A stretch of 33,889 nucleotides of DNA from a virus. The notes beneath the pieces are model-generated. The model saw only the letters and a program-made list of their open reading frames with translations, searched no databases and was not told the DNA's origin. Within the stretch, counting starts at the first letter, position 1; each line of letters starts with the position of its first letter. Of this stretch, positions 1 to 33,176 are shown one piece after another. The stretch is from IMG/VR virus record IMGVR_UViG_3300042557_000175, positions 1 through 33,889 of that record, one strand, 5' to 3'. Both the position numbers and the translations under genes were made by a program.

Positions 1-60
1 CACCAATTCATTGTGTGCATTCTGCCAATTTTCAGGATATTCAAATATATTAACTGCCAT
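1..60 (-). CDS. Tail structural protein, N-terminal fragment (left copy)
   Basis: The ATG lies at position 60 and the reading frame stays open to the window edge, giving 20 residues that begin MAVNIFEYPENW. They are identical to the first 20 residues of the 398-residue protein at 30581-31777, so this is the same gene in the second genome copy, cut by the window edge. It overlaps the neck protein gene by 11 nt, as in the complete copy. Confidence 0.85.
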   Translation of the reverse strand, partial: MAVNIFEYPENWQNAHNELV

Positions 61-697
61 TTTTTATTGATTTAATTATGTTGAATTTAATTGTTGAACT
101 CATTGCTTCAGCCAATTGTTTTTTTAATATGTTTTTCCTTTGTGTGTTGTCTGCTTTTTCTTTAAACTGCATTGGTGCTATACCACCAATCTTAGTTGCA
201 ACAGCCAAACCTTTTGCCGCCTTATCAATCAAGTCCATGTTGGCTTTCTTTTTCTTGCTTGTCTTGTCAGTTTTGTACAACCTTTTCTTTTTGCCACCAA
301 TCAATGCAGACTTCATGCCTGTCCTTGCAATGTAATCCTTGAATGACTTAATCATTGCAGGTGGTGTGTACAGGTTTTTGAATTTAAATTTTGAATTAGG
401 TGCTTTGCCTTTATTCTTTACACCTTTAACACCATCATTGACAAACCTCCAATACTTTGCACTTGAAATAATGTTCACACCAAACCCATCTGCATCTTGA
501 AAAGGAACAGATGTCATTGATTCTGCTAATGTTGATGCACCTTTGGTTCTTGCTTTGCGTTGAATTTGCTTCTTCATTAACTGAATGCTTTCATTTGCAA
601 AACTTATCAATACTGATTCAATAGAATTCTTACTTGCCTGTGCAAAGTCAGTGATTGATTCACCATATTTTTTCCCTATTTCTGATGCCTTAGACAT
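50..697 (-). CDS. Neck / head-tail joining protein (HK97 gp10-like), left copy
   Basis: This 215-residue basic protein resembles the HK97 gp10-type neck proteins that close the head-tail junction of siphoviruses. Visible support is the family-like layout: a helical N-terminus, a central stretch with KYWRFVNDGVKGVK that matches the usual YxxxxxxG region, and a lysine-rich C-terminal half with GLAVATKIGGI. It starts 8 nt inside the end of the frameshift extension of the tail assembly chaperone and overlaps the next tail gene by 11 nt. Compared with its copy at 31767-32414, roughly 53 of 215 residues differ by my hand count, far more than in the flanking genes. The assignment to gp10 is by pattern and position, not by a search. 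Confidence 0.6.
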   Translation of the reverse strand: MSKASEIGKKYGESITDFAQASKNSIESVLISFANESIQLMKKQIQRKARTKGASTLAESMTSVPFQDADGFGVNIISSAKYWRFVNDGVKGVKNKGKAPNSKFKFKNLYTPPAMIKSFKDYIARTGMKSALIGGKKKRLYKTDKTSKKKKANMDLIDKAAKGLAVATKIGGIAPMQFKEKADNTQRKNILKKQLAEAMSSTIKFNIIKSIKNGS

Positions 698-947
698 TTA
701 ATCGTTGTTGCTCTGCTCTATCTGATTCTGACTTGTCCATGTAAAATGAAATGGTGTTCAAAAATTCAATCACATTCATTTGAAAAAAATAATCCCACTT
801 AGTTCTGTCATTGTTTGCCATGTCATTTATTGTGGCAATCCACCCCCACTTTTCTCTGAATTGAAATTCAACTTGTCCACCAACCCCTCCGCCATTTCCA
901 CCAAAAAGTGTTCCATATTTTTGGCTAATTCCCTGTAGTATTTGCAA
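690..947 (-). CDS. Tail assembly chaperone, frameshift extension domain (left copy)
   Basis: This frame opens at a TTG directly on a nine-T run inside the chaperone gene, so an independent start is unlikely. It is best read as the -1 frameshift extension of the upstream protein. The 85 codons contain the motif KWGWIATINDMANND followed by an FLNTISFYMDK-like helix, similar in kind to the W-containing T domain of gpGT-type chaperones that recruits the tape measure protein. Residues upstream of its first good ATG are also conserved in the second copy, which argues against initiation at that ATG. The predicted fusion is 163 + 85 = 248 residues. Confidence 0.7.
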   Translation of the reverse strand: MQILQGISQKYGTLFGGNGGGVGGQVEFQFREKWGWIATINDMANNDRTKWDYFFQMNVIEFLNTISFYMDKSESDRAEQQRLNV

Positions 948-1435
948 AAAAAAACCATGATAGGATAAGCATCTTTTATTTTCATGTGATTGAAAAACAG
1001 GTCTGCTCTTTCTTTGTGATTTTGCCCATCATAAGGAAGATATTTGAACCACTTCTTTTCAACACACAATGATGCAAGGATGTTGTGGATATTGTGTTCA
1101 ATCTTTGATGGGTCTTTGGTAAAATATGAAACATCAATGTATTGTTCAGCAGACAAATCCTGTTCACGCCATTTGACCAAAAACTTTCTTCCACCAACTT
1201 TGAACTTCAACTTGATTTTGCCATCCTTTGGAATGCTTTCCAAATTAGTGATTTCACCAAGTTCTTTATACAGGTCATTCAAAGGCATTGATTCAATTTC
1301 ATCCAATGTTCTGTTGGTTGCCTCTGCTAAAAACTTGCATTTGCGAATGATTGGGTCAGTCTCAGATTCTGAGATGATTTTGCATTGCAAATATTGTTTG
1401 ATAGTAAGTTCTGTAAATGACTTAATCATGCTCAT
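827..1435 (-). CDS. Tail assembly chaperone, zero-frame product (left copy)
   Basis: This 202-residue protein has the features of a siphovirus tail assembly chaperone (G-type product): a first domain with KIKLKFKVGGRKFLVKW and DLSAEQYIDV, a histidine/asparagine helix, and a C-terminal helical part with YPIMVFFCKYY. Such chaperones coat the tape measure protein during tail assembly. At codons 161-163 (GTT TTT TTT) lies the slippery T9 run leading into the 85-codon -1 frame. The gene follows terminase and does not sit next to the tape measure gene, which is unusual. About 12 of 202 residues differ from the copy at 32544-33152. Confidence 0.65.
   Translation of the reverse strand: MSMIKSFTELTIKQYLQCKIISESETDPIIRKCKFLAEATNRTLDEIESMPLNDLYKELGEITNLESIPKDGKIKLKFKVGGRKFLVKWREQDLSAEQYIDVSYFTKDPSKIEHNIHNILASLCVEKKWFKYLPYDGQNHKERADLFFNHMKIKDAYPIMVFFCKYYRELAKNMEHFLVEMAEGLVDKLNFNSEKSGGGLPQ
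946..954 (-). promoter_or_regulatory. Slippery T9 run, predicted -1 frameshift site (left copy)
   Basis: On the coding strand the sequence reads ATG GTT TTT TTT TGC in the zero frame. Slipping back one base over the two TTT codons gives TTG as the next codon at 947-945, exactly where the conserved second frame opens. T TTT TTT fits the X XXY YYZ heptamer rule. Transcriptional slippage on nine T residues would have the same effect. The run has the same length (nine) in the diverged copy at 32663-32671. Confidence 0.7.
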
Positions 1436-1459: not shown

Positions 1460-2635
1460 TTAAATTGAAATTGTTGAATATTTACCACTTGGTCTGTTGT
1501 TTAATTTATTTAAAGCAATGTATCGCATTGGGTCAATGCAATGGTTCATGTAGTCAATTGGCTTCCCGGTCAACTTGCCATTGGAATCTGTTTCCCATTG
1601 GTATGCCCTCAATTCCTTAATTAGGTTGGTTGATGTCTTTGTCACATACAATTCATAGCGTTTAAGGATATCAATTCCAATTTTTATTGAATCCGCACCT
1701 TTGATTGCCGGGTGAACATTAAAACCTTGTCTTCTCAATTCTTCAATTGATTTAGGCTCTGCTGAATCACAAATTAATTCTTGCCTTCCAAAATTGATTG
1801 ACTTCAAGTAATTTCCAATGTCATTATTTGTCATATTGGTTTGGTACAACAATTCATCAATCCACAACTTGCCATCCTGCTTCCAAATACCAACCAATGT
1901 TGTTGGGTCATTGGTGAAACCAAAGTCCATTGAATACGCAACCAATTTTGCATCTGAGGGGATTGCTTCAACCTGTCTCCAATTGTCAATCACAACCCCT
2001 TGCAATGAACCTATCTGACCCAATCCATACACCTTCCACCAATTGTCCCAATACTTACTTGTGATGGCTTTTTCTTTTGCTGATTCAATGTCATTGATGA
2101 TTGTCTGTGGCAATGCCTCATTGTCTTTGTATGTCAAAATAAGGTGTTCAGAATCTGCTTCATTTAACACTTCTGTGTGACCCCAAAATTCATGTGTTGG
2201 ATTAAAGTCAATAAAAATGTCATCACTTGTCCTGATGGCTAATTGATAATAAGAATCAAAACTGATGTTGTTTGCCTCATTGATGTACAAAACATTTCTT
2301 CTTGCACCCCTCAATTTGGATTCTTGTTCTGCACTAAAAAATTCAATGTATGAACCATTACTAAATTTATAAGTCAACAATGACCTGTTCCAATTCTGTT
2401 CATGAAAACGGTTTGTCCAATTCATGATTTTCAAAAAATCCTTCATTGCCCCCCTTCTTAGATGGGGAATGGTTTCAGATACAATTGAAATTTCAAGGTT
2501 TGGTTTTTTGATAGCCATGTCAATCAATACCGGGATGATTCCAAAGGTCTTCCCTGCGGATGTTCCACCTTGAATGACTTTCTTTCGGGCATTCAGTTGT
2601 CTGATTTTCTTAATTGCAGTTGTGTATTTGAACAT
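1460..2635 (-). CDS. terL: Terminase large subunit
   Basis: The terminase ATPase/nuclease drives DNA into the prohead and cuts the concatemer. The 391-residue protein has a Walker A motif, QGGTSAGKT, at residues 22-30, a Walker B motif VLYINEAN near 115-122, and a C-terminal RNase H-like nuclease with acidic residues in SMDFGFTND, ELICDSAEP and the final DPMRYIA. The chosen ATG (MFKYTT) is the first standard start. The frame stays open for 26 further codons upstream but without ATG, GTG or TTG. It lies 88 nt downstream of the small subunit gene. The partial copy at the right edge is about 98 percent identical at protein level by hand count. Confidence 0.95.
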   Translation of the reverse strand: MFKYTTAIKKIRQLNARKKVIQGGTSAGKTFGIIPVLIDMAIKKPNLEISIVSETIPHLRRGAMKDFLKIMNWTNRFHEQNWNRSLLTYKFSNGSYIEFFSAEQESKLRGARRNVLYINEANNISFDSYYQLAIRTSDDIFIDFNPTHEFWGHTEVLNEADSEHLILTYKDNEALPQTIINDIESAKEKAITSKYWDNWWKVYGLGQIGSLQGVVIDNWRQVEAIPSDAKLVAYSMDFGFTNDPTTLVGIWKQDGKLWIDELLYQTNMTNNDIGNYLKSINFGRQELICDSAEPKSIEELRRQGFNVHPAIKGADSIKIGIDILKRYELYVTKTSTNLIKELRAYQWETDSNGKLTGKPIDYMNHCIDPMRYIALNKLNNRPSGKYSTISI

Positions 2636-3155: not shown

Positions 3156-3242
3156 TTATAATCCTATTGATGCTAAATACACACCAATTGAAAATATTGC
3201 TATGTATAAATATAAAATTGCAATTATTTTAAAAAATTTCAT
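3156..3242 (-). CDS. 28-residue single-pass membrane microprotein
   Basis: The peptide begins MKFFKIIAILYLY and is one hydrophobic helix with a positively charged N-terminus. Its ATG overlaps the stop of the upstream methyltransferase gene as ATGA (3242-3239), the same coupling used throughout this phage, and it fills the gap to the small terminase gene. No function is recognised. The ORF is short and could be chance, but its placement and composition favour a real gene. Confidence 0.45.
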   Translation of the reverse strand: MKFFKIIAILYLYIAIFSIGVYLASIGL

Positions 3243-3811
3243 GGCTTGAATACTTTTATTTTCCATTGTGAACCTCCAATTTTTTCAATGGTCAGATTTT
3301 TAAATGATGCAAATTCAATGACAGCATCAACAACCCCTTGCCAACTTTCATTAAAATCATCACCACAAATAATTCCACCACTTTTCAATTTTGGAAACCA
3401 TGTTTTAATATCTTTTAAAACTGACTTGTAATCATGTGACCCATCAATGTATATTAAATCCAATGATTTTGCTTTAAACAATTTTGATGCAGATATTGAA
3501 TCCAATTTCATGATTGATAGATTGTCAGCAAAATGATACAGGTTTTGAATTGCTTGTTCATGTGTTGGAACATTACCTGCAAGTTTGTGTTCTTCTGAAC
3601 CTTCAAAATGGTCAATGGCATAATAATCATATTTGATTTGCCTGTTTATTAATTCAACATTCCAAAGTGCAGTTCCTCTGCCTTTATAAACTCCAACCTC
3701 AACAATTTTAATTTCTTTGCTAAGGTCTAAATCATTCAAGCAACTTTCAAGCAATTTTCCTTGTTCACTCATTGTTGCCCATCCTTCTATGTTTTCAAAT
3801 ATGTGTTCCAT
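3239..3811 (-). CDS. Class I SAM-dependent methyltransferase
   Basis: This 190-residue protein shows a Rossmann methyltransferase pattern: motif I IVEVGVYKGRGT at about residues 36-47, an acidic second strand (YYAIDHFEG), and LDLIYIDGSHDYKSV followed by LKSGGIICGDD. That arrangement is typical of the Methyltransf_24 / macrocin O-methyltransferase-like group, which often methylates sugars. It starts 1 nt inside the stop of a family 2 glycosyltransferase gene (TAATG), so it probably acts on a glycan made by that neighbour. The substrate is unknown. Confidence 0.8.
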   Translation of the reverse strand: MEHIFENIEGWATMSEQGKLLESCLNDLDLSKEIKIVEVGVYKGRGTALWNVELINRQIKYDYYAIDHFEGSEEHKLAGNVPTHEQAIQNLYHFADNLSIMKLDSISASKLFKAKSLDLIYIDGSHDYKSVLKDIKTWFPKLKSGGIICGDDFNESWQGVVDAVIEFASFKNLTIEKIGGSQWKIKVFKP

Positions 3812-4569
3812 TATAGTGGTTGATAAATATTTAATTTGCCATCAATTAAGTCCTGTTTCATCTTATTGAATTCAGGGATGTCTTTTGATGCCATTTCCCT
3901 TTTTTCTTGCCAATATGATGTTTCTTTTGTGTCTATGTGTTCAATATCAATGTGAGGAATAAAGCAATTTTTGAACCCTGATAAATTGCATCTGATTGCA
4001 GACAAGGTATCATCAAATCCATACAAACTTGGTTGAATCAATCCACCAATTCTTTTAATTAATTCCTTATTGTACATTTGACATGTGCCAATGACATGGG
4101 CAACATCTTCAACAATTTTCCATGTTTCACCATTCTTGTGAGGTAACATTCTTAATGTACTTTTCCATTGGTCATTTCTATGTGGGTTTTCCATTAAGTC
4201 TTTTCTTTTCAATCCAATGATGCCAATTGATGGGTCTGCTTCCAAATATTCCTCCATTTCGTCAACCCAATTTGAATAATTGATGACAACATCATTGTCC
4301 ATTTTAATTAGGTGTTCACCCCTTGTCAACCTCCATGCCCTGTTGATGGCTTTTGCTGTTCCAACATTTTCTGACAAGGTGATGATGGTGAAATGCTTTT
4401 CAAATTTTTTAAGGATGTGTTTTGTTTCTTCACAAGAATTGTTGTCAACAACAACAACTTGATGTTTGTCAAGGTCAACCATGTCAACAATATTTGTCAA
4501 GGTTTCTTTGGTGTATTGACTGCGTTGGTTTTCTTCTGTGTCATATACTGCAATGCCAATCAAACTCAT
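3811..4569 (-). CDS. Glycosyltransferase family 2 (GT-A fold)
   Basis: The 252-residue protein has a nucleotide-sugar binding start with VVVVDNNSCEET at about residues 38-49, the ENVGTAKAINRAW segment, and the metal-binding DxD-type motif MDNDV (DND at 91-93). A later VIGTCQMYNKEL...GGLIQPSLYGFDD region is usual in GT2 rhamnosyl- or N-acetylglucosaminyl-type enzymes. It overlaps the upstream gene by ATGA and the downstream methyltransferase gene by 1 nt. The target could be a virion protein, DNA or a host surface glycan; the sequence does not decide. Confidence 0.85.
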   Translation of the reverse strand: MSLIGIAVYDTEENQRSQYTKETLTNIVDMVDLDKHQVVVVDNNSCEETKHILKKFEKHFTIITLSENVGTAKAINRAWRLTRGEHLIKMDNDVVINYSNWVDEMEEYLEADPSIGIIGLKRKDLMENPHRNDQWKSTLRMLPHKNGETWKIVEDVAHVIGTCQMYNKELIKRIGGLIQPSLYGFDDTLSAIRCNLSGFKNCFIPHIDIEHIDTKETSYWQEKREMASKDIPEFNKMKQDLIDGKLNIYQPL

Positions 4570-4847
4570 TTTTTAGGTCTTCCTTTCTTTGGATTCTCAG
4601 TCTTCAATTGCAATTCATATCGTTCAATCCAATACTTAAAATCAGTCAATGCATTGATATTACATCCTGAACAATTGCCGGGTCTGATGCCTGTGATGTC
4701 TGCAACCAATTCTTTGATTTTCATTAATTGAAAAGGTGAACCAACCCAATCAGATTCATTTTTAAAAACCTCCATCACTTTATACAATGTGAATCTGTCA
4801 CCTGTGTCTTCAAAAAGTGATTCATAAATTTGTTGATATGTCATCAT
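4566..4847 (-). CDS. Conserved-looking 93-residue protein of unknown function
   Basis: The product begins MMTYQQIYESLFED and has a central GIRPGNCSGCNINAL motif with a CxxC pair, then a helix rich in W, Y and charged residues, and ends with the basic KKGRPKK. It sits between a 39-residue microprotein and the GT2 gene, overlapping the latter by ATGA. I do not recognise the family. The CxxC could bind metal, but a second pair is missing. Either of the first two methionines could be the start. Confidence 0.6.
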   Translation of the reverse strand: MMTYQQIYESLFEDTGDRFTLYKVMEVFKNESDWVGSPFQLMKIKELVADITGIRPGNCSGCNINALTDFKYWIERYELQLKTENPKKGRPKK

Positions 4848-4852
4848 ATTTT

Positions 4853-4972
4853 TTATAATTGATTTTTTTTAAATTCTTCAATACGCTTTATGATGGCTTT
4901 GGCAAATGCATTATAGAATTGTTCCATTTTCCATTGCTTGAATTTAATGATTGTTGTTGATGGTGTTTTCAT
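4853..4972 (-). CDS. 39-residue basic microprotein
   Basis: The peptide begins MKTPSTTIIKFKQW and continues as an amphipathic, lysine-rich helix ending KKNQL. Its ATG forms an ATGA overlap (4972-4969) with the stop of the upstream membrane protein gene, and its stop is 5 nt before the next start. It exactly fills an otherwise unexplained gap. Function unknown. Confidence 0.5.
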   Translation of the reverse strand: MKTPSTTIIKFKQWKMEQFYNAFAKAIIKRIEEFKKNQL

Positions 4973-5205
4973 ATTTTGAACATTATTCTTTTAAAAATTA
5001 TTGATGTGTATGCACCAAATCCACCAATTGACAATGCTTCAATAAATGGTCTTAATGGTTCACAATAAAAGTGAATGATGTATGCCATCAAACAAGTCCA
5101 AAAAGACAAGCAGACAACACAATTGAATGGTTTAAAATCCAACCATTTTGGTGTTTGGTTAATTGTAAAAAAACTAACCCACAAGAATGCGATTCCTATA
5201 ATCAT
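4969..5205 (-). CDS. Small membrane protein with CxxC-SFW motif
   Basis: This 78-residue protein has two or three hydrophobic segments: MIIGIAFLWVSFF at the start, the stretch around CVVCLSFWTCLMAYII, and SIGGFGAYTSIIF. The CxxCxxFW pattern resembles the small membrane proteins of the DUF1360 type, but I cannot confirm this. Its start lies 32 nt inside the upstream glycosyltransferase gene, suggesting translational coupling and a membrane-linked role near the glycosylation genes. Confidence 0.6.
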   Translation of the reverse strand: MIIGIAFLWVSFFTINQTPKWLDFKPFNCVVCLSFWTCLMAYIIHFYCEPLRPFIEALSIGGFGAYTSIIFKRIMFKI

Positions 5206-6256
5206 TTACTATTTTTTTATATGTTTCAAACCTTGTTTTTGCAACATTGTCAATATGATACAATTGAACATCCTTGTGTAAATTCTCTGCCAATTCTTGA
5301 ATCCTGTGTGGGTTGTCAATCAAGTAAGTCATGTGTTTGTACCAATCCTTTTTGGTGTTTGCAACAAGGCAATTTTCACCATGCTTTAACATTGGCAAAT
5401 ATGGTTCAACACCTGAAACAATCACTGCCTTCTTTTTAAAACCTGCTTCAAGCAATTTCAAGTTTGATTTCATTGAATTGAAACGGCTTTTTCTCAATGG
5501 TATTAATGCAATATTTATTCTGTCATAGAATTGTGCATAATTGGTCACATCTGTTGCCGGGAAAAGAAAAAAATGGTCAGGCAATGCATTTCCTTTTGCA
5601 CTCAATACACCTGCAATGGCTTGGCTTGTTTCATTCTTCCCATCATAGCCACCATAAACCATTTTCATTTTGTCCCGATATTCAGATTTATAAACAGAAT
5701 ACAATGAATCCACCATCAACAACACATCCTCAAAGTGAGTTATTGAACCACTCCAACCAAATGTTGGCATATCAAAACCTACTTCTTTAACTTCAAATTG
5801 TTCAATTGGATTAATACCATTTGGAACAACATAAACATTTTCATTCAATAATTCTGCTCTAATCATTTTCTTCATTTCACCATGTGTGCAGGTGATTGCC
5901 TGTGCATGATAGCCACCTAATTTGATATGATAAGCATGATTTGACCTTTTGGTTTGTTCATGCAATATGTGTGTTGATGGTATTTGATAGTCATCATCAA
6001 GGTCAAGTATATAAGGAACATTGGCATCCTTCAATTTGACAATCAATTCTTGTGTGTTTAATGTCTTTGAAATGAACCTGTTTGCAACAACCAAATCATA
6101 TTCCTTCAAGAATTCAATCTCTGCTGAATCAATTTCTGTTGCCATGTCAATTTCAACTTCATTTTGCAATGCAATCTGATTGTGTGGAACAACCAATCTG
6201 TGATAGTCAACACCACTAATTTTTGGATAAGAGGGAACAACAACCAATATTTTCAT
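5174..6256 (-). CDS. Glycosyltransferase, GT-B fold (GT4-like)
   Basis: The 360-residue protein starts with the typical MKILVVVPSYPKISGVDYHR strand-loop. The acceptor half includes VVANRFISKTL and LDLDDDYQIP. The donor half includes VYVVPNGINP, FGWSGSITHFEDV and LLEAGFKKKAVIVSGVEPY, which matches the sugar-nucleotide binding end of GT4/GT1-type enzymes. The pattern resembles the glycosyltransferases found in other phage genomes near tail or modification genes. It overlaps the upstream sigma-like gene by ATGA. Acceptor unknown. Confidence 0.85.
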   Translation of the reverse strand: MKILVVVPSYPKISGVDYHRLVVPHNQIALQNEVEIDMATEIDSAEIEFLKEYDLVVANRFISKTLNTQELIVKLKDANVPYILDLDDDYQIPSTHILHEQTKRSNHAYHIKLGGYHAQAITCTHGEMKKMIRAELLNENVYVVPNGINPIEQFEVKEVGFDMPTFGWSGSITHFEDVLLMVDSLYSVYKSEYRDKMKMVYGGYDGKNETSQAIAGVLSAKGNALPDHFFLFPATDVTNYAQFYDRINIALIPLRKSRFNSMKSNLKLLEAGFKKKAVIVSGVEPYLPMLKHGENCLVANTKKDWYKHMTYLIDNPHRIQELAENLHKDVQLYHIDNVAKTRFETYKKIVNDYRNRILVG

Positions 6257-7110: not shown

Positions 7111-7893
7111 TTAAAATAAGTATAATTGTTTTATTCTTTCTGAATCTTTCAAAATTTCATCTGTTATTGGTGAAATTAAATCTGCAAGTTCAATTTCACA
7201 AAAATTGCCACAATCAGGCAACAATTGTGGTTCATTTGCACCTTCATTTGGCTTCAAATCTTTTAAAAATTTACCATTAATGCAAGAATGACCAATGTTG
7301 TTTTCAATATCTGACATCCTTTGAAAATGTTCAGGGAAATCTTTTCTGATTTTATTCCAATAACCTTTGCCACCTTTTACACAACCAATGCAATTGTTGT
7401 TCATATATCCCAATTCATACATTTTTGGCAATCTAATTCTGTTCATCAATAGTAATTCAGCACACATTTGTTTGGTCATTTTCATTTCAATAAGTGGGTA
7501 AAGTGGTTTGATTGATGGGTTTTGTTGTGTGAACCTTACTGCCCTGTTGATTTCCTTTTTACTATATTCAAAATCAAAAATTTGATTGGCTTCAGGAAAT
7601 TGTTTTTGCAATTTGAAACGAACATCTTTTTTTAAAACCTTTGTACACATTGCACCACCCGGTGAATTTATGTATCCTTTTTCAGCAACTTCAAATTGAT
7701 TATTGTATTTATGTGATTTGATAATGTTTATTTTTTTACCATACCATTTTTCACAATCATCAATGAATCTTTTATTGTCTTCATGTGCGGAATCAATTTG
7801 TATATAATACAATTCAACATCATCATATTGTTTTAAGGCTAATTTACAAGCAACTGCACTTGTAATTCCTGCACTGAACCATGCTATCTTCAT
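7111..7893 (-). CDS. PP-loop ATPase, PAPS-reductase-like family
   Basis: The 260-residue protein begins with a PP-loop variant (FSAGITSAVAC; residues 6-16) that binds ATP pyrophosphate in the adenine nucleotide alpha-hydrolase fold. Further marks are QIDSAHEDNKRF, GGAMCTKVLKKD (C83), NNNCIGCVKGGKGYW (CxxC at 168-171) and a CGNFC pair near 228-232. The layout fits the phage "phosphoadenosine phosphosulfate reductase" family, which is related to DndC and other sulfur-handling or adenylating enzymes; several cysteines could hold a metal or an iron-sulfur cluster. Its ATG overlaps the stop of the cytosine methyltransferase gene (ATGA at 7893-7890), so the two may act together in DNA modification. 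True activity is unknown. Confidence 0.8.
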   Translation of the reverse strand: MKIAWFSAGITSAVACKLALKQYDDVELYYIQIDSAHEDNKRFIDDCEKWYGKKINIIKSHKYNNQFEVAEKGYINSPGGAMCTKVLKKDVRFKLQKQFPEANQIFDFEYSKKEINRAVRFTQQNPSIKPLYPLIEMKMTKQMCAELLLMNRIRLPKMYELGYMNNNCIGCVKGGKGYWNKIRKDFPEHFQRMSDIENNIGHSCINGKFLKDLKPNEGANEPQLLPDCGNFCEIELADLISPITDEILKDSERIKQLYLF

Positions 7894-8975
7894 AATTTCA
7901 TATAATTAAAGATTTGACAAATAACATCAATTGTCCAACCATTACCAAGCATTTTGTATCGTTGTGTGTCACTTACACAATTTGTATAATTGTCTTTAAC
8001 GGTTTGTAGTCTTTCGCATTCAATTGGGGTTAGTCTTCTAATTCTTGAATTTAAAATAACACCATTTGGTTCAGATTTTCTTAAAGTATATGATTTGCCT
8101 TTATCACTCATACAATTGCCAAAATTTTCACTCTTCCCCAATTGTGTTGCAATTATTTCACTTGTATTATTTAATATAAAATTATCATCCATTCTTGTCC
8201 CTTCTTTTGTTGTTATTGAATTTGATTTTTTGTTCCCATCTGTTGGATTAAATTTGAATCCATTACCATTTTCTTTTTGTTTGTATGTATTTTTAATAAA
8301 GTATTTTAACATTTTTTTACTTAGAAAATATTTTTCATTAACTTCTGTTTCCAAAATATCTTTCAACAAAATTCCTTTGTCTTTTGGTTGCTCAATTATT
8401 GATTCTAAATCACCAAACAAACCACCGGGTTTCATGCCAATATTTGTCCAATAAATTCTTTTTCTGTTCTGAGCAGAAACAAGTGATGAATTGATATGAA
8501 TTCCTTTCACTCCAATTGCTTTACTCAAAATCAATTCCCATTTTTCACCCATTTCAACATTTTCAAGAAGAAAATAAACATTTGGATTTGACTTTTTGAT
8601 GTCATTTAAAATTCTCATGTATTCCCAAAACAAATATGATTGACCTTCAAATTCAAAACCTTCATTTTTCAATTCAAGATAGTGTTCCAATGTCAAAATT
8701 TCTTGTTCACATTTGGTTGCCATTCCTTTTCTTTTCCCGGCAAATGAAAATGACTGACATGGTGAACCACCAATCAACAAATCAATTTTTGGCAATGAAT
8801 TGACATCAACATCAACAACTGAACCCAACTGAATTGTGTTTGGGAAATTGTGTTGTGTCACTTTAATTGCATATTTATCAATTTCACTTGCAAAATAATT
8901 TGTGACTTCAAATCCACACCGGTTGAGGGCTTGTTGTCCGCAACTCATGCCATCAAATAAACTTAGTACATTCAT
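7890..8975 (-). CDS. dcm: DNA (cytosine-5) methyltransferase
   Basis: The 361-residue enzyme shows the C5 methyltransferase motifs in order: I (LSLFDGMSCGQQAL, residues 4-17), IV with catalytic cysteine (GGSPCQSFSFAG, PC at 72-73), VI (FLLENVEMG, ENV at 138-140), VIII (QNRKRIYWTNI), a target recognition part around 215-310, and the final motifs IX-X (RRLTPIECERLQTV, YKMLGNGW). It would methylate cytosine in phage DNA, probably against host restriction. No restriction endonuclease is nearby, so it acts as an orphan enzyme. It starts 3 nt after the helicase stop and couples to the PP-loop gene. Confidence 0.95.
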   Translation of the reverse strand: MNVLSLFDGMSCGQQALNRCGFEVTNYFASEIDKYAIKVTQHNFPNTIQLGSVVDVDVNSLPKIDLLIGGSPCQSFSFAGKRKGMATKCEQEILTLEHYLELKNEGFEFEGQSYLFWEYMRILNDIKKSNPNVYFLLENVEMGEKWELILSKAIGVKGIHINSSLVSAQNRKRIYWTNIGMKPGGLFGDLESIIEQPKDKGILLKDILETEVNEKYFLSKKMLKYFIKNTYKQKENGNGFKFNPTDGNKKSNSITTKEGTRMDDNFILNNTSEIIATQLGKSENFGNCMSDKGKSYTLRKSEPNGVILNSRIRRLTPIECERLQTVKDNYTNCVSDTQRYKMLGNGWTIDVICQIFNYMKL

Positions 8976-9857: not shown

Positions 9858-10462
9858 GCTATTGGGTCTCCTTTCCAATCTAACTTAATTTCCTTTTTGA
9901 TTTCATCTTGCCAACATTTGCCATTCAAATATGTCAATGGGTTTTTACGATATTGAACATCAGGTGTTGAATTTATGTAATCATTAATTGTGTTTTTTAT
10001 TTTGATTCTGTCATCTGCATTCAATTTGTCAAACTTGTCTTTGCACTTTTTGGTGTCAACTTTTTTACCATAAGTATTCCAAAATTCATCAAAGGAATAA
10101 TATATATCATTTACATTAACACTTACACCTTCGTTTGCTTCAGTTTGCTTCAACATTGAAGCATTTGCTTCAGTTTGCTTCATTTTGCTTCGCCTTGCTT
10201 CACCACTTTTGATTCCACCCAATCTTCCTGATTCTGACCTTTTTGGTTTTATTTCATTGTTCCATTTTTCCAAATCTCTTTTAAGTTGTTGTTTGATAGG
10301 TTCAAATGTCAATTCAATAATCAAGTCATCTGTTGTTGGGTTATGGTCATTTACATACCTTAAAATGTGTTTAAACAGGTCACCTGCTTTTTCTGATGGC
10401 ATCTTTTCAATTGTGTGTATCAAATCGGTATACAACACAAAACTTTTTTTCCCATTTGCCAT
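9854..10462 (-). CDS. Replication initiator / helicase-loader-like protein (DUF6291-type)
   Basis: The 202-residue protein starts with a domain (KKSFVLYTDLIHTIEKM, AGDLFKHILRYVND, FEPIKQQLKRDLEKW) that I recognise as the DUF6291 type common in Bacteroidota phages and prophages. A linker at about residues 88-110 carries the repeated word KQTEAN. The C-terminal domain (YSFDEFWNTYGKKVDTKKC ... KNPLTYLNGKCWQDEI) resembles the tail of DnaD/phage replisome organisers. It lies directly upstream of the helicase gene with an ATGA overlap, as lambda O precedes P. The DNA for the linker holds iteron-like repeats, so the origin may lie inside this gene. Confidence 0.7.
   Translation of the reverse strand: MANGKKSFVLYTDLIHTIEKMPSEKAGDLFKHILRYVNDHNPTTDDLIIELTFEPIKQQLKRDLEKWNNEIKPKRSESGRLGGIKSGEARRSKMKQTEANASMLKQTEANEGVSVNVNDIYYSFDEFWNTYGKKVDTKKCKDKFDKLNADDRIKIKNTINDYINSTPDVQYRKNPLTYLNGKCWQDEIKKEIKLDWKGDPIA
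10134..10201. repeat. Iteron-like TTTGCTTC repeats, candidate origin
   Basis: Read on the plus strand, TTTGCTTC occurs at 10134, 10144, 10164, 10174 and 10184, with a sixth degenerate copy (CTTGCTTC) at 10194-10201. Spacing is 10, 20, 10, 10 and 10 nt, close to one helical turn. The double gap holds a perfect inverted repeat, GCTTCAA-CA-TTGAAGC (10147-10162). The flank at about 10093-10133 is very AT-rich (contains AATAATATATATC). Iterons next to AT-rich DNA inside an initiator gene is the arrangement of the lambda origin within gene O. Confidence 0.55.
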
Positions 10463-10464
10463 GA

Positions 10465-10674
10465 CTAATCCTCCAAAAATGAAATCATTTTTCTGAGTTC
10501 TTTTGCAAGTTTTATTGCTGATTCCTTTTCAAGCATGATTGCCATGCCTTCATAATCATCTTTGTTTTGATAAAAAACTTCAATGAAAATTTCATTGTAA
10601 CCATTAATGGTCATAAATAGTTCAGAATACAATCCACTTCTGTCTGTTGACTTAAAAATTATTTCATGTGGCAT
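10465..10674 (-). CDS. 69-residue protein of unknown function
   Basis: From the first ATG (10674, MPHEIIFKSTDRSG) the product is a small mixed alpha/beta protein with an acidic central part (FYQNKDDYEGMAIML) and a basic helix (SAIKLAKELRKM) at the end. A TTG five codons upstream is in frame but would lie in the hairpin downstream of the terminator. It is the first gene after the terminator and stops 2 nt before the DUF6291-type gene. No family is recognised. Confidence 0.6.
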   Translation of the reverse strand: MPHEIIFKSTDRSGLYSELFMTINGYNEIFIEVFYQNKDDYEGMAIMLEKESAIKLAKELRKMISFLED

Positions 10675-10683
10675 AATAAAAAT

Positions 10684-10702
10684 AATCAATTACGCATTGA
10701 TT
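10684..10702. promoter_or_regulatory. Perfect inverted repeat ahead of the 10674 gene
   Basis: AATCAAT (10684-10690) and ATTGATT (10696-10702) are perfect complements separated by TACGC. The element lies between the terminator and the first start codon of the next block. It could be an operator, a hairpin in the 5' leader, or a part of a longer termination structure. Confidence 0.45.
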
Positions 10703-10710
10703 AAGCGAAT

Positions 10711-10775
10711 AAAAAAAACCGACCAACTAAGGATTTCGCAAGGGAGTATATGAGTCCCAATCCTTAATCAATCGG
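10711..10775 (-). terminator. Long structured intrinsic terminator
   Basis: In minus-strand RNA the arms CCGAUUGAUUAAGGAUU (10775-10759) and AAUCCUUAGUUGGUCGG (10735-10719) form an uninterrupted 17-bp stem with 13 Watson-Crick and 4 G-U pairs. It is followed at once by eight U residues (10718-10711). The loop side has an inner GGGA/UCCC hairpin (10758-10742) and an unpaired UUGCGA. The G-U pairs work only on the minus strand, matching the direction of the genes. It ends the replication unit. The complex apical part suggests it might also be a small RNA or protein-binding site. Confidence 0.85.
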
Positions 10776-10845
10776 CAATGTCTTTTTAATTTGTACATAT
10801 ACTTGTGGATGCGAATCCGATTCAATAATATAAAAAATAAAACCG

Positions 10846-11196
10846 TTACACAGATAAAAATTTCAACAATCCTTTTTTTGCTTGGTGGATTGAGTTTGCT
10901 CTTTCATCCAATGACTTGATTTGTGCCTTGATTTCATTGATGTCAAATGAACAATAATATCCCCGACTTGTTGCAATTAATGGAAGGATTGAATTTGACC
11001 TGATGTGATTTACAAATTTCCTCAATCGTGCTTCAGAAAATGTAATTCCTGTGTTTTCCTTGATTGACTTGCATATCTCTTTCCCTGTGATTGGATTTTC
11101 AATTGTTCTGAGTTTAAAACCTGCAATCATGTTTGGAAGAAAATGCATTTCATCTGCTGTTAATTCTGTTGTTATGTCTTCAAAGTTAGTTATCAT
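10846..11196 (-). CDS. Winged-helix-like small protein
   Basis: The 116-residue product has an N-terminal acidic helix, then NPITGKEICKSIKENTGITFSEARLRKFVNHIR, which reads like a winged helix, followed by IATSRGYYCSFDINEIKAQI as the wing and a basic terminal helix (DERANSIHQAKKGL). The pattern resembles small HTH proteins in phage replication regions. It is the last gene of the replication unit; a 170-nt non-coding stretch with the terminator follows. It overlaps the previous gene by 11 nt. Confidence 0.6.
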   Translation of the reverse strand: MITNFEDITTELTADEMHFLPNMIAGFKLRTIENPITGKEICKSIKENTGITFSEARLRKFVNHIRSNSILPLIATSRGYYCSFDINEIKAQIKSLDERANSIHQAKKGLLKFLSV

Positions 11197-20968: not shown

Positions 20969-22948
20969 TTATTTCTTTACTCGTTTAACTAATTCTTGAT
21001 TCCAAATGTGTCTGCAATATGGAAGGTTCACATCCTTTTTTGGGTCATGATACCATCCACCCCTGCGAGTAAATGCATCATAATCAGGTATTCCATACAA
21101 GTCACCCAATTCTTGTGAAATTTTGTCTATATCTTCCCTTGAAAAATACCTTTGATTGTCCATCATTGCTTGACAAAAATCCCTTGATTTACCACCTTTT
21201 ACCAATGCAGGTGCATCAACACGCAATGCATATCTATAACGGATAAAAAGGTCTTCAAATGAACTGATTTTTCTGTCTTGTCCTTTGCTTGTGATGACTA
21301 TTTCTTTTCCTGTTGTGTCAATTAATTTGTCAGCAATTAATACTTCCAAAATGTTTTTGATTTCTGTCTTTGAAACCTCCAAAATCTTTGCCAATGAATC
21401 AGCAGAAATGTTTGGTGTTTTCTTTATCAAGTCCAATGCACCTTCTTCAATTTTTGATAGTGCAAATTCTTGTCTTGAAAAACCTTGTTTGGTTTCTTTC
21501 AATGATTCAAAATTGTCAATTGGTTCACCATATTTTTGAAATATAGAAAAGTCAATATTTTCATCATTTTCTTCATGCTTACAATTTGAAAATTGACTTG
21601 GTGTTTCTCCAATTACATCACCGCCTTCAACAGGTGGTTTGTTGATGATGTTTCTGATTTCATTGTTTGTCAATGTTGCAAGAACCTTGTTTGCTACCAA
21701 TGGTGATAAGGCATTCAAGTCATCAATCACAGATGTGTTCACATTTGCTTTGATGTCCAATGGTTTTCTTCCAATGATTCCACGCATTTCATCTTTGGTT
21801 AAAATGCCCAACAATGTACTTTCACTGAATGATGGCATCACCGGGTCAACAGGTTTAATGAAAATCTTACCTTTTACAGGTGCAAAAATATCAAATACTC
21901 TTCTTTGAATATCTTGTTTAGGTGAAACATAAGTATTTTGAAACAAATTGAATGCATCAATCATTTCATTTCTTCCACCCAATTGACCCTCTACACGAAC
22001 ACCAAACAACATTGGTGATACAATCTTGTGACCAACAAAAATTTCCTCCTGTATTGTCTTATTTAATGCATCATATTTCTTGTCAAAATCACCTGCACTT
22101 AAATCCAAAATTTCAGGTGTACGCAATGGGTCATCAACAAAGTCAATCACCATTGTACCTGCTTGGTCAGTTGGTGAAAATTTTGCCTTCATTCTTCTTT
22201 CTGTTGACTTCATTTCTTCATCACTTGGCACACCATTTTTGAAGACAATCATCTTTGAACCTTTGAATGAATTCTGAATCTCTGCCCTATGGAAATTTGC
22301 AATTTCACAATCTGTTATAATCGCAGGAACAGCCCCTATGTATTCACCCAATGTGTAAGTTTTGATGCCGGGTCTGTATGATTTATAGTAAAAAATAAAT
22401 TCAGATTGCTTTTCATTTGGGTTGTATAATGGCAAGGTCTTAATTTCTTCAGGTTTGATGTTTGTATTTTCAACACCATCATCATTGAGCCAACAATCTG
22501 ACAAATAAAATTCTGTATTGTCTATGTTTGACCTAACCTTTGAATAATCAACATGGTATAAGGTTGCCAATTCACCTTTTTTGTTGTTTACACCTTTCAA
22601 ATAAAAGCCACCAAATATTTCATTGTCCAAACAAGTCTTTGACATTAAATCTGTCAACGATTCATATTCATTTGGATTGTCAACAAATGATTTTAAAAGG
22701 GCAATTTGTTCACCTTCCATGCCTGTTTGGTCAAATGTCCAACCTTGTCCTTTGATGTATGATTGTTTACTTGTGATGATGGCATTGTGCTTTGCTGACC
22801 TATTGAATAAAGTCAATAAAAATTCAGGGTAATTGTTGCCTTCACCATATTTTACATAAGGTATTTTTTGGTTTGATGATGGTTCAACAAATTGTGGAAC
22901 TTTGTCATTGGTAAAACCAATTGAAATTAATGATTCTTTAAAACTCAT
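20969..22948 (-). CDS. Portal protein with C-terminal winged-helix and CRHxW domains
   Basis: The 659-residue protein is larger than a typical portal (400-550). Residues to ~400 have the portal pattern: NRSAKHNAIITSKQSYIKGQ, LTDLMSKTCLDNEIFGGFYLK, EIANFHRAEIQNSFKGSKMI, VGHKIVSPMLFGV. An added region near 490-560 (LDLIKKTPNISADSLAKILE...) reads like a winged helix, and the last ~90 residues (RDFCQAMMDNQRYFSREDI ... LPYCRHIWNQELVK) resemble the C-terminal CRHxW part of phage minor-head (MuF-type) proteins. The portal forms the dodecameric DNA channel. The gene couples to its upstream neighbour by ATGA. Confidence 0.85.
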   Translation of the reverse strand: MSFKESLISIGFTNDKVPQFVEPSSNQKIPYVKYGEGNNYPEFLLTLFNRSAKHNAIITSKQSYIKGQGWTFDQTGMEGEQIALLKSFVDNPNEYESLTDLMSKTCLDNEIFGGFYLKGVNNKKGELATLYHVDYSKVRSNIDNTEFYLSDCWLNDDGVENTNIKPEEIKTLPLYNPNEKQSEFIFYYKSYRPGIKTYTLGEYIGAVPAIITDCEIANFHRAEIQNSFKGSKMIVFKNGVPSDEEMKSTERRMKAKFSPTDQAGTMVIDFVDDPLRTPEILDLSAGDFDKKYDALNKTIQEEIFVGHKIVSPMLFGVRVEGQLGGRNEMIDAFNLFQNTYVSPKQDIQRRVFDIFAPVKGKIFIKPVDPVMPSFSESTLLGILTKDEMRGIIGRKPLDIKANVNTSVIDDLNALSPLVANKVLATLTNNEIRNIINKPPVEGGDVIGETPSQFSNCKHEENDENIDFSIFQKYGEPIDNFESLKETKQGFSRQEFALSKIEEGALDLIKKTPNISADSLAKILEVSKTEIKNILEVLIADKLIDTTGKEIVITSKGQDRKISSFEDLFIRYRYALRVDAPALVKGGKSRDFCQAMMDNQRYFSREDIDKISQELGDLYGIPDYDAFTRRGGWYHDPKKDVNLPYCRHIWNQELVKRVKK

Positions 22949-26334: not shown

Positions 26335-27966
26335 TTATCCTATTGTTGCCTTGTCTTCAATTGCCTTGACTTTGTTTTGTGTGTTGGTGATGTCTGATTC
26401 AACCACATAAACCTTTTGGTCAATTCCATTTGATTGAGTTCTGATTGATTCATTTCCAATTGTAACCATGTTGGATGATGGTCTGACCATTGGGGGCAAT
26501 GATGGTCTTGTTACTGATGGCATTCCGCCACCTGATTCACCACCGGGAATTTTTGTATTCAAAATTGCATTCACATTTGCCAAACCACTTGCCACTGCTG
26601 CTGCTGCACTTAATGCACCAATGAAAGGTGATGCAACATTTGGAACAGGAAGGAATGCAGATTCATAGGCTTTTTGTGCAGACAAGTATGTTGAAATCAA
26701 TGTTGATGCAACTGACAATGCTTTTCCTTCTGCTGTGTTTTTACCTGCCAATTCTGCGAATCCATTTAACGCATTTGCAGTAATGTTCAATTGATTGACT
26801 TTTGCCTCTGCTTCTTTTTTATCAATTTCAATTTTTGCCTTTTGCAGTTTGTCATAATTCTGATAAAACTCATAATCAGATTTGGCTTGTTTATTTTTTA
26901 AATCATTTTGGTCTTTGTCATATTTCTGATAAAATTCAAAATCTTCTTTCCCTTTTTTATTGCGTTCTTCTTGTTCTTTTTTTAATTGCTCTTTTCTTTT
27001 TTCTTCTTCATTTTTCCTGATTTCAGTTCTTGTTTTTTCAATCTCAATTAACTTTTTATTGTATTCCTCTGAACCTTTTTCAAGCAATTTCAATTCATCT
27101 TGTTGCAATTTCAATTTCCTTTTCAACACATCTTTTCCTTGTGCTTCTGCAAGTTCAATTTCAAAATTTCTTTGCTTCAATGAATTTTCTATTTTGACTT
27201 TTTTGTCTTCTTCTGCAAATCCAACATTGTATGCTTCTGCTGTGCGTTCACCAAATGTTTTTGCTGAATCAATTGCCCCACTAAAATCACCATCAAATAC
27301 TTTTTTAACAACCTCACCAATGACTTTGAACCCTTCAACCGTTGCCTTCATTGTTCCAACTGCAACCTGTCTGAAATTGGTGAAAAAATCTGTTACAATT
27401 TTAAATGATGGAAATGCTTCAGTGATTGCTTTGCTGAATTCCTTCCAATTTGCAACCAATGTCCCAACTGCAACTGCAATAGCACCAACACCTGTGGCAA
27501 TCAACGCCCCTCTTAATGTGAACAATCCTTTGACCGCATCACCTAATTGTGCTTTCAACAACTTGAATGCATCACCCATACCCAATAAGCCATTCAAACC
27601 TGTTGCAATAGCAATTGCACCTTGCGTTTGTGCCATCATTTTTTGCAGGTCTTTATTCTCTGACCCAAATAATTGCATTGCCCCTTGTGCCACAGAAAAA
27701 CCATTTGCAACACCACCAATGACATTGGCAAATGCTTGAAATTTTGCTTCAGGATTGAACGCTGCAACTGCGTTTTTTGCATCATCAATTTTGTCCCGCA
27801 ATTCACCTGCCCTTTTTGCGGTTTTCACAAATGCTTCTGAACTTGGTTCTAAGTTTGCAAGTTCATTTGTTAATTGTCTTAACTCACTTTTTAAAGACTT
27901 GACTGAATTCTTTGCTTCATTGTCTTTTATCTTTAATCCTAATACTATATCATCTGTTTCTGCCAT
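26335..27966 (-). CDS. Tape measure protein
   Basis: The 543-residue protein has a helical, heptad-rich start (SVKSLKSELRQLTNELANLE), a hydrophobic membrane-like stretch (LIATGVGAIAVAVGTLVANW, ~150-172), a long charged coiled coil (about 265-395) with the repeated word FYQKYDK/FYQNYDK, an alanine-rich hydrophobic part near 440-470 and a proline/serine-rich C-terminus. This layout is that of a tape measure protein, which fixes tail length. At 543 residues the tail would be short (roughly 80 nm by the usual 0.15 nm per residue rule). Confidence 0.8.
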   Translation of the reverse strand: MAETDDIVLGLKIKDNEAKNSVKSLKSELRQLTNELANLEPSSEAFVKTAKRAGELRDKIDDAKNAVAAFNPEAKFQAFANVIGGVANGFSVAQGAMQLFGSENKDLQKMMAQTQGAIAIATGLNGLLGMGDAFKLLKAQLGDAVKGLFTLRGALIATGVGAIAVAVGTLVANWKEFSKAITEAFPSFKIVTDFFTNFRQVAVGTMKATVEGFKVIGEVVKKVFDGDFSGAIDSAKTFGERTAEAYNVGFAEEDKKVKIENSLKQRNFEIELAEAQGKDVLKRKLKLQQDELKLLEKGSEEYNKKLIEIEKTRTEIRKNEEEKRKEQLKKEQEERNKKGKEDFEFYQKYDKDQNDLKNKQAKSDYEFYQNYDKLQKAKIEIDKKEAEAKVNQLNITANALNGFAELAGKNTAEGKALSVASTLISTYLSAQKAYESAFLPVPNVASPFIGALSAAAAVASGLANVNAILNTKIPGGESGGGMPSVTRPSLPPMVRPSSNMVTIGNESIRTQSNGIDQKVYVVESDITNTQNKVKAIEDKATIG

Positions 27967-30584: not shown

Positions 30585-31777
30585 AGTGATTGTCTGAAAT
30601 TGTCAAATGTGTATTGTATGGTCAATTCAATATTGCTCATTCTTCTATCATTTACATAGCGTTTTTGCTCATAGTTTGTTTCAACTATATTGACAGGCAC
30701 ATAAGTGTTTGAATCAATCTCATACATCACAATTGGTGATTCAATTAATTGCTTCATTCCTTCATATTCTGCATCAGTTAAATAATCAGAATTAATGGTG
30801 ATTGAGTCAGATGCTTTTGTATAATAGTTTGTTTTTGCTCTGAATGTTTTTGCATAGTCCAAAGGTTGAAATTTCTTGTATTGCTTCCTTTCAACTTCTG
30901 TCCTGTTCCTGCTCACCTTCATAAAAGTAAATGAATCAAATGCACCTAAATTATTTAACCAATGCAACCTGACTGATTCATATTTTGTGCAACTTGTATC
31001 TATTAAATAAAGGTTTTGAAACAATAGGTCTTCACTTGAATTCAATCCTTCAACAGAATAATAAACTGCATTGGGATTTGTGAATGCTGCATTGTAAACG
31101 GTCAAATAATACCCAAATGAATTACCTGCTTTTGCTATGTTTATGGATGTTATTCCACTCACAGGTGTATAACCTGCAGTTGATTGAATTATCACACCCA
31201 TTGATGCGTTTAAAAGTGAAATTCTTATATATGCCAATCTTCCTTGTGGGTCAAACATGGTTATGAATTTTTGTTCATCCTTCCTTAGTTTTTCCATGAA
31301 GGTTTGTTGATTCAAAGTTCTGTTTGATGAATCAATGTCCAAAATTATGTATGCTGTTTTACTCCAATTAAGAAAATCAAAAATTGCATTGCTTGACTTT
31401 GCATTGTCACCGCTTGAATAGTAACTGCCTAAATTAGGGAATATTGTTGGTGTTCCACTTACATCATATACTTCACCAAAGTCAACCCAATAATTAATTT
31501 TGGAATTGTTACATGATTGAATCCCACTCACATCAAATGATTTAAAATCATAGCTCAAATAATTTCTTATCACCTCACCAATGTCAAATTTTATGGTATT
31601 GACTGATGGTTGTTTGGGCAACAATAATCTTGAAACAGGATTTGTTTGACCTACAATGTTTATGTCTGCAAGAAATTGAAAATTAGGCAAACCTGCATTG
31701 GTTGATGAAACATCAAACACCAATTCATTGTGTGCATTTTGCCAATTTTCAGGGTATTCAAATATATTAACTGCCAT
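30581..31777 (-). CDS. Tail structural protein (distal-tail or fibre-like)
   Basis: The 398-residue protein begins MAVNIFEYPENWQNAHNEL and is beta-rich with many S, N and T residues (PNLGSYYSSGDNAKSSNA, LTVYNAAFTNPNAVYYSVEG). The C-terminal part (NRTEVERKQYKKFQPLDYAK, NYEQKRYVNDRRMSN) is more basic. It lies between the neck protein and the 871-residue tail protein. I recognise it as a structural protein by place, not by name. The window starts inside its second copy (1-60). Confidence 0.6.
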   Translation of the reverse strand: MAVNIFEYPENWQNAHNELVFDVSSTNAGLPNFQFLADINIVGQTNPVSRLLLPKQPSVNTIKFDIGEVIRNYLSYDFKSFDVSGIQSCNNSKINYWVDFGEVYDVSGTPTIFPNLGSYYSSGDNAKSSNAIFDFLNWSKTAYIILDIDSSNRTLNQQTFMEKLRKDEQKFITMFDPQGRLAYIRISLLNASMGVIIQSTAGYTPVSGITSINIAKAGNSFGYYLTVYNAAFTNPNAVYYSVEGLNSSEDLLFQNLYLIDTSCTKYESVRLHWLNNLGAFDSFTFMKVSRNRTEVERKQYKKFQPLDYAKTFRAKTNYYTKASDSITINSDYLTDAEYEGMKQLIESPIVMYEIDSNTYVPVNIVETNYEQKRYVNDRRMSNIELTIQYTFDNFRQSL

Positions 31778-32414
31778 TTTTTATTGATTTAATTATGTTG
31801 AATTTAATTGATGCACCCATTGCTTCTGCCAAATCTCTCTTCAATTTATTTCTGCGTTGTGGTGTATCTGCTTTTTCTTTGAACATCATTGGCTCTATTC
31901 CACCAATCTTCGTTGCAACTGCCAATCCTTTTGCTGCCTTTTCAATCAAATCTGAATTAGCAGTCTTTTTCTTAGTCTGTTTGTTTGTTTTGTATAGACT
32001 TTTTCTTTTCCCACCTATTAATGCAGTCTTTTTGCCAGTCCTTGCAATGTAATCCTTGAAAGATTTAACCATATCATCAGGTGCAAATAGGTTCTTGAAT
32101 GAGAATTTTGAATTAGGTGCTTTGTCCTTGTTCTTAACACCTTTAACACCATCATTGACATATCTCCAATATTTTGAAGATGAACGAACATTCACACCAA
32201 TACCATCAGCATTGTCAAATGGCTCTGCAATCATTGATTGTGCCAAAGTTGATGCACCTTTTGTTCTTGCCTTTTGTTGAATTCTTTTCTTCATTATAGC
32301 AATTGAGTCATTTGCAAATATCATCAACACCGATTCAATGGTATTTTGACTTGCAGTTGAAAAGTTTTCAATTGACTCCCCAAACTTTTTTCCAATTTCA
32401 CTTGCCTTAGACAT
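31767..32414 (-). CDS. Neck / head-tail joining protein (HK97 gp10-like), right copy
   Basis: This is the 215-residue counterpart of 50-697. The same architecture is kept, with conserved blocks MSKASEIGKK, KARTKGASTLA, NDGVKGVKNK, SFKDYIARTG, KAAKGLAVATKIGGI and the shared end KFNIIKSIKNGS. Substitutions cluster in the linkers between them. It overlaps the 398-residue gene by 11 nt and the chaperone extension by 8 nt. Confidence 0.6.
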   Translation of the reverse strand: MSKASEIGKKFGESIENFSTASQNTIESVLMIFANDSIAIMKKRIQQKARTKGASTLAQSMIAEPFDNADGIGVNVRSSSKYWRYVNDGVKGVKNKDKAPNSKFSFKNLFAPDDMVKSFKDYIARTGKKTALIGGKRKSLYKTNKQTKKKTANSDLIEKAAKGLAVATKIGGIEPMMFKEKADTPQRRNKLKRDLAEAMGASIKFNIIKSIKNGS

Positions 32415-32664
32415 TCAACCTCCTTTGTTCTTCCCGGTCTGATTCTGATTTGTCCATGTAAAATGAAATGGTGTTCAAAAATTCAATTACATTCATTTGA
32501 AAGAAATAATCCCATTTGGTTCTGTCATTGTTGCACATATCATTTATCGTGGCAATCCATCCCCACTTTTCCCTGAATTGAAATTCAACTTGTCCACCAA
32601 CTCCTCCGCCATTTCCACCAAAAAGTGTTCCATATTTTTGGCTAATTGATTGTAGTATTTGCAA
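32407..32664 (-). CDS. Tail assembly chaperone, frameshift extension domain (right copy)
   Basis: The 85-codon -1 frame opens at TTG on the T9 run, as in the left copy. Only four of 85 residues differ (S6, C44, E78 and R81 in this copy), and the KWGWIATINDM motif is intact. Keeping an open, nearly unchanged frame over the region that overlaps the zero-frame gene supports translation of both frames. Confidence 0.7.
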   Translation of the reverse strand: MQILQSISQKYGTLFGGNGGGVGGQVEFQFREKWGWIATINDMCNNDRTKWDYFFQMNVIEFLNTISFYMDKSESDREEQRRLNV

Positions 32665-33152
32665 AAAAAAACCATGATTGGATATGCATCTTTGATTTTC
32701 ATTTGATTGAAAAATAGGTCTGCCTTTTCTTTGTGGTTTTTGCCATCATAGGGAAGATATTTGAACCACTTCTTTTCAACACAAAGTGATGCAAGTATGT
32801 TGTGTATGTTGTGTTCAATCTTAGATGGGTCTTTGGTGAAATATGAAACATCAATGTATTGTTCAGCACTCAAATCTTGTTCACGCCATTTCACCAAAAA
32901 CTTTCTTCCACCAACTTTGAACTTCAACTTGATTTTGCCATTCTTTGGGATTGATTCCAAATTAGTGATTTCACCAAGTTCTTTATACAGGTCATTCAAT
33001 GACATTGATTCAACTTCATCTAAAGTTCTGTTGGTAGCCTCTGCCAAGAATTTACATTTGCGAATGATTGGGTCAGTCTCAGATTCTGAGATGATTTTGC
33101 ATTGCAAATATTGTTTGATGGTAAGTTCTGTAAATGACTTAATCATGCTCAT
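32544..33152 (-). CDS. Tail assembly chaperone, zero-frame product (right copy)
   Basis: The 202-residue counterpart of 827-1435 keeps the same length, start and stop. About 12 residues differ; several changes lie in the overlap tail (NSGKSGDGLPR at the end). The core KIKLKFKVGGRKFLVKW and DLSAEQYIDV blocks are unchanged. Confidence 0.65.
   Translation of the reverse strand: MSMIKSFTELTIKQYLQCKIISESETDPIIRKCKFLAEATNRTLDEVESMSLNDLYKELGEITNLESIPKNGKIKLKFKVGGRKFLVKWREQDLSAEQYIDVSYFTKDPSKIEHNIHNILASLCVEKKWFKYLPYDGKNHKEKADLFFNQMKIKDAYPIMVFFCKYYNQLAKNMEHFLVEMAEELVDKLNFNSGKSGDGLPR
32663..32671 (-). promoter_or_regulatory. Slippery T9 run, predicted -1 frameshift site (right copy)
   Basis: The coding strand again reads ATG GTT TTT TTT TGC with nine T residues in the same place. 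The flanks have changed (TTGATTGTAG instead of TTCCCTGTAG on the plus strand nearby) while run length and phase are kept. Confidence 0.7.
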
Positions 33153-33176
33153 AAATATAAATTTGGGTTTAAATTG

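Follow-up and report, generated by a model that had tools for sequence, protein, structure and literature searches.

Two overlapping frames beside the terminase gene

The window, by which we mean the whole stretch of DNA analysed (a 33,889-base IMG/VR virus record), carries its genes mainly on the minus strand. Directly after the gene for the terminase large subunit (TerL) lies a gene of 202 codons, in which an earlier note had pointed out the string ATG GTT TTT TTT TGC; the string is indeed present on the minus strand, where the slip region reads ATC ATG GTT TTT TTT TGC AAA and the run of nine T's (T9) occupies 954-946. The same note had described an 85-codon frame in the -1 register that could begin with TTG exactly at the slip site, and this open reading frame was found at 947-690, its first permitted start being the TTG at the slip codon. 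When recomputed, the two predicted products have the 202 and 248 residues given for them, the fusion (GT) consisting of 163 residues from G followed by 85 from the -1 frame. The features of the locus are:

827..1435, minus strand: G frame (frame 0), predicted short product of 202 aa with its stop at 827-829; open reading frame, frame-0 selection upstream of the run, fold model with pLDDT 82
946..954, minus strand: candidate T9 slippage site, GTT TTT TTT TGC, with the heptamer T_TTT_TTT at 947-953; nine T's in all relatives with the junction
690..947, minus strand: T extension, 85 aa read in the -1 frame, beginning at the slip codon and ending at its stop, 690-692; -1 selection after the run
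827..945, minus strand: two-frame overlap, comprising the 40-residue tail of G and the start of T
32544..33152, minus strand: G frame of the second copy, another allele of the same phage type
32663..32671, minus strand: T9 of the second copy
32407..32664, minus strand: T extension of the second copy
1460..2635, minus strand: TerL, directly upstream of G/T; Terminase_3C and Terminase_3 above cut-off
50..697, minus strand: HK97-gp10-like tail/neck gene, directly downstream of G/T; PF04883 above cut-off, phrog_5
26335..27966, minus strand: tape-measure-like protein, the presumed client of G; phrog_3336 (tail length tape measure), E 7e-6

Apart from the T9 runs, one in each gene copy, the window has no homopolymer of nine or longer. 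The G/GT unit is present twice, the second copy (32407-33152) being 91% identical to the first, because the ends of the contig overlap imperfectly. Positions 1-2172 and 31718-33889 are 87% identical without gaps and hold part of terL, the G/GT unit and the gp10-like gene. Most simply, assembly joined two strains whose common genome, circular or circularly permuted, is ~31.7 kb long; the near-copies may instead be a true duplication.

Selection on the two frames was assessed in 8 close sequences through pairwise codon differences, which are not independent events. By this count, the synonymous share of differing codons upstream of the run is 75% for frame 0 and 2% for -1; past the G stop it is 3% for frame 0 and 80% for -1, and within the overlap (827..945) 16% for frame 0 and 37% for -1. 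Where the first and second copies differ within the overlap, 5 of 6 codons are synonymous when read in the -1 frame, against none of the 6 in frame 0. Judged from these codon patterns, selection moves from frame 0 to the -1 frame at the T run. At the level of sequence, the two-frame observation of the earlier note is confirmed as more than chance, and that slippage makes a G/GT-type pair here would seem close to certain.

Relatives and the conservation of nine T's

A first scan with the fusion returned 7 loci, all with ATGGTTTTTTTTTGC, and a profile of both parts reached relatives at 47-53% identity, among them one clade with TATGTTTTTTTTTGC. We also scanned IMG/VR with the extension domain alone, a query that leaves the search unbiased towards the T run; this yielded 50 loci with identities down to about 24-25%, and exact T9 stands at the junction in all 50. 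The count includes one locus (L034) whose upstream frame is shortened in its contig and which the automatic filter had dropped; an alignment of G alone was too divergent to serve as a scan query. T9 is also kept in contigs near 50% G+C, and in loci L043 and L044 it is the sole A or T run of at least 7 within 12 kb. L044 (51% G+C) has its gene order in common with the window as far as the large tail-type gene.

The W-containing domain that the earlier note had seen in the extension is borne out by the motif KWGW, which forms its conserved core. The statement that the -1 frame lacks a good start of its own also held: the stretch from the run to this core contains neither ATG nor GTG, leaving as the only candidate a TTG that the run itself creates, and a separate start usable for the T extension was found in none of the relatives. 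Over 21 diverse rows, the only invariant residues of G are D, Y, F and F, and both F are the slip codons. One member (L007) has a shortened frame-0 tail, with a G of 197 aa, which is consistent with a weakly constrained end of that frame.

Among cultured phages, tblastn with the window fusion gave no match, and queries from diverged metagenomic members reached the Nonlabens phages P12024S and P12024L (Inhavirus). Their pairs, gp38-gp39 and gp40-gp41, are of the same sequence family, follow TerL as in the window and have an exact T9 junction again (ATA CTT TTT TTT TAT); they differ in their annotation, two hypothetical genes for each pair, in their 25-28% identity to the bridging members and in the A that follows the run. 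One further relative has a T9 junction as well. Scans of genome contigs found no prophage. The window TerL is closest to that of Flavobacterium phages (55.6%), and the host probably belongs to the Bacteroidota.

Three other phages were considered as relatives and set aside. Flavobacterium phage 6H has a G-like gp10 (10047-10927) that ends soon after a T_TTT_TTC and is followed, in the gap, by an open frame lacking annotation; its fold match is weak (TM 0.34), it lacks T9, and a shift at T_TTT_TTC hits a stop at once. Elizabethkingia phage TCUEAP1 carries after TerL a single 180-aa open reading frame (2164-2706) whose only match is a faint one to T (hhalign probability 14%), possibly a chaperone without a frameshift. 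Flavobacterium phage Fpv5 has a related TerL and a different gene order.

Probable slippage at the T run and its agent

Very probably, we are dealing with a tail assembly chaperone gene of the G/GT type, whose GT form would arise from slippage at T9, by the polymerase, the ribosome or both. Most expression would give the 202-aa G, and a fraction of decoding would slip at exactly nine T's into the -1 frame and give the 248-aa GT. On the lambda model, we would expect G to bind the tape-measure protein and GT to bring in tail-tube subunits through its T part. Slippage in the cell, and with it a G:GT ratio, is what we infer, as is the role in tail assembly. The agent that we slightly favour is the host RNA polymerase, which would add one U and thus produce a U10 mRNA; we lean this way because relatives keep the length of nine whatever the codon phase. 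Within the G/GT explanation we give roughly even weight to the polymerase, a lesser though substantial share to the ribosome acting on T_TTT_TTT, and a small one to both together.

T_TTT_TTT takes seven T's, and the run is nine in every relative. The nine are split over codons either as 2+3+3+1 (phase A) or as 1+3+3+2 (phase B), with an in-phase T_TTT_TTT present in both, and a tree of 17 fusions shows at least 2 phase changes, on well-supported branches, with the length constant at nine. Given each genome's codon usage, exactly nine T's are expected in only 10-17% per lineage; for six deep lineages this corresponds to 7e-6 if they were independent, a figure that overstates the case, as the lineages are related. 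Away from the T9 site, A/T runs of at least 8 fall below the codon-shuffle expectation in ~163 kb of coding sequence, and A runs of at least 9 were observed 1 time against about 7.6 expected from codon shuffles.

Programmed transcriptional slippage calls for a homopolymer of 8-9 or more with a conserved length, and T9 has both properties; it would also leave transcripts of mixed length at the site (U8, U10, U11). Nine A/T is a length at which slippage by bacterial RNA polymerase is efficient (PMC5009743), and the E. coli enzyme favours T runs and insertion (PMC6260861); insertion is the direction needed for GT. The transcriptional slippage of Thermus dnaX and of Shigella spa13 and mxiE likewise uses a homopolymer of slippage length, at which one added base opens a longer frame (PMC5009743), although in different genes, and at the T9 of the window such slippage is a prediction from DNA sequence. 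The same review names no tail chaperone as using transcriptional slippage (PMC5009743), and in a limited literature search we found no proposal of polymerase slippage for one.

Purely ribosomal -1 frameshifting of the kind known from lambda and P2, in which two Phe tRNAs would slip on T_TTT_TTT and the extra two T's would be incidental or held by coding constraint, is a plausible explanation that we nevertheless doubt somewhat more than we believe. It agrees with the in-phase heptamer in all T9 phases and with the tail chaperones described so far, which frameshift on the ribosome (PMC5009743), and amino-acid constraint on the flanking codons could hold the run length. The E / E+E' pair of phage P2 is a close example, with a T-rich slip site, the -1 direction and no need for a hairpin (PMC3091744); it differs in its TTTTTTG, the site of P2-like phages, where the present family always has T9 in two codon phases, and the sequences are unrelated. 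Against a purely ribosomal mechanism, seven T's would be enough, and exactly nine in two phases across deep lineages is unlikely by codon usage; furthermore, U_UUU_UUU is much weaker than A_AAA_AAG in E. coli (PMC5009743). Nor is a conserved stimulator, common at such sites though not obligatory, seen near the run: 16 members gave no conserved or unusually stable RNA fold on either side of it. Since P2 works with no downstream stimulatory structure (PMC3091744), a missing fold is in itself no argument against the ribosome.

The earlier reading of the locus as a programmed -1 frameshift thus stands as regards the slippage-joined G/GT-type unit; the ribosome is one candidate for the slipping agent, given a run that is always nine T's and occurs in two phases. 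A U10 transcript would encode the identical 248-aa protein, so that a junction peptide cannot tell the ribosome from RNA polymerase. We tentatively propose, with belief and doubt almost in balance, a tail chaperone family of phages probably infecting Bacteroidota in which the G:GT ratio is set by RNA polymerase slippage at the conserved T9 and not by ribosomal frameshifting. A G/GT pair is in itself ordinary in tailed phages; here homopolymer length, and not codon phase, seems to be selected, which makes the family a clean natural case, and if polymerase slippage makes GT, the ratio would be set at transcription. The cultured member P12024S makes the question directly testable.

Identity of the pair and other features of the window

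In G/GT chaperones, G binds the tape measure protein and T the tail tube protein, neither G nor T is found in the virion, and the gene sits between those for the tail tube and the tape measure. Tail chaperone families are too diverse for a sequence match to decide membership, and our claim is therefore that the pair works like a G/GT chaperone, not that it belongs to a named sequence family. The locus has overlapping frames joined near the end of the first, a conserved slip site and a second frame without a separate start, and its genes run in the order TerL, G/T, HK97-gp10-like gene, two tail-type genes and tape-measure-like gene. As in lambda gpG/gpGT, a short and a C-terminally extended product would share one start and part where a -1 shift occurs late in the first open reading frame, in the tail region. 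There is no sequence match to lambda, nine T's take the place of a lambda-type mixed heptamer, and the gene adjoins TerL, three genes separating it from the tape-measure-like gene further downstream; no tail tube gene was recognised in the window.

The earlier name of tail assembly chaperone fits architecture and gene order, on which we base it as a probable assignment: matches in PHROGs and Pfam are to families of unknown function, Pfam gave no above-cut-off match to a known chaperone family, and the predicted models matched no solved structure. The fold model of G is good (pLDDT 82) and that of T moderate (pLDDT 63) and mostly helical; the G model matches unnamed phage proteins and the P12024S protein only. 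In BFVD, chains of ~240-267 residues (A0A516L611, A0A516L5A8, A0A6J5N0W0, A0A6J7WJY4 and others) match the G and T models, the T matches in single chains being weak (E about 0.03-1.5), and these modelled matches suggest single-frame fused relatives.

It is rather improbable that the slippage-made pair is real and is some other two-form protein encoded after the terminase. Such a protein would account for the lack of any matching annotated family or solved structure and for a gene that adjoins TerL, away from the tape measure gene. A two-form C-terminal extension in a tail operon, followed by tail genes, is however the hallmark layout of the chaperones, and there is weak similarity to Phage_TAC_7 in one member (E 0.037) and to a BFVD chaperone model (E 0.14). 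With the chaperone reading, a widespread unannotated family would gain a likely function, including two PHROGs of unknown function (phrog_32199 and phrog_38404, the P12024 pair).

It is very unlikely that the extension is an independent gene that forms no fusion and is started from a codon of its own, such as the slip-site TTG or the internal ATG annotated in P12024S gp39. The P12024S/L annotation does present two genes, the second from an internal ATG, but -1 selection begins at the run, ahead of that annotated start, the stretch up to the conserved core offers only the run-made TTG, and the single-chain relatives match both domains, if weakly for T; moreover, T9 would be retained for no reason. 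An assembly error, a pseudogene or a phase-variable homopolymer has a negligible chance, for although homopolymers are error-prone and apparent fused relatives occur in BFVD, T9 appears in every independent assembly as well as in the genome records of two cultured phages, and selection acts on both frames.

Elsewhere in the window, a Methyltransf_24 methyltransferase and two glycosyltransferases (families 2 and 1) are clustered beside the terminase genes (3239-6256), and a PAPS-reductase-domain protein adjoins a C5-cytosine DNA methylase (7111-8975). The portal protein (20969-22948) weakly resembles winged-helix DNA-binding domains in its C-terminal residues, about 500-558.
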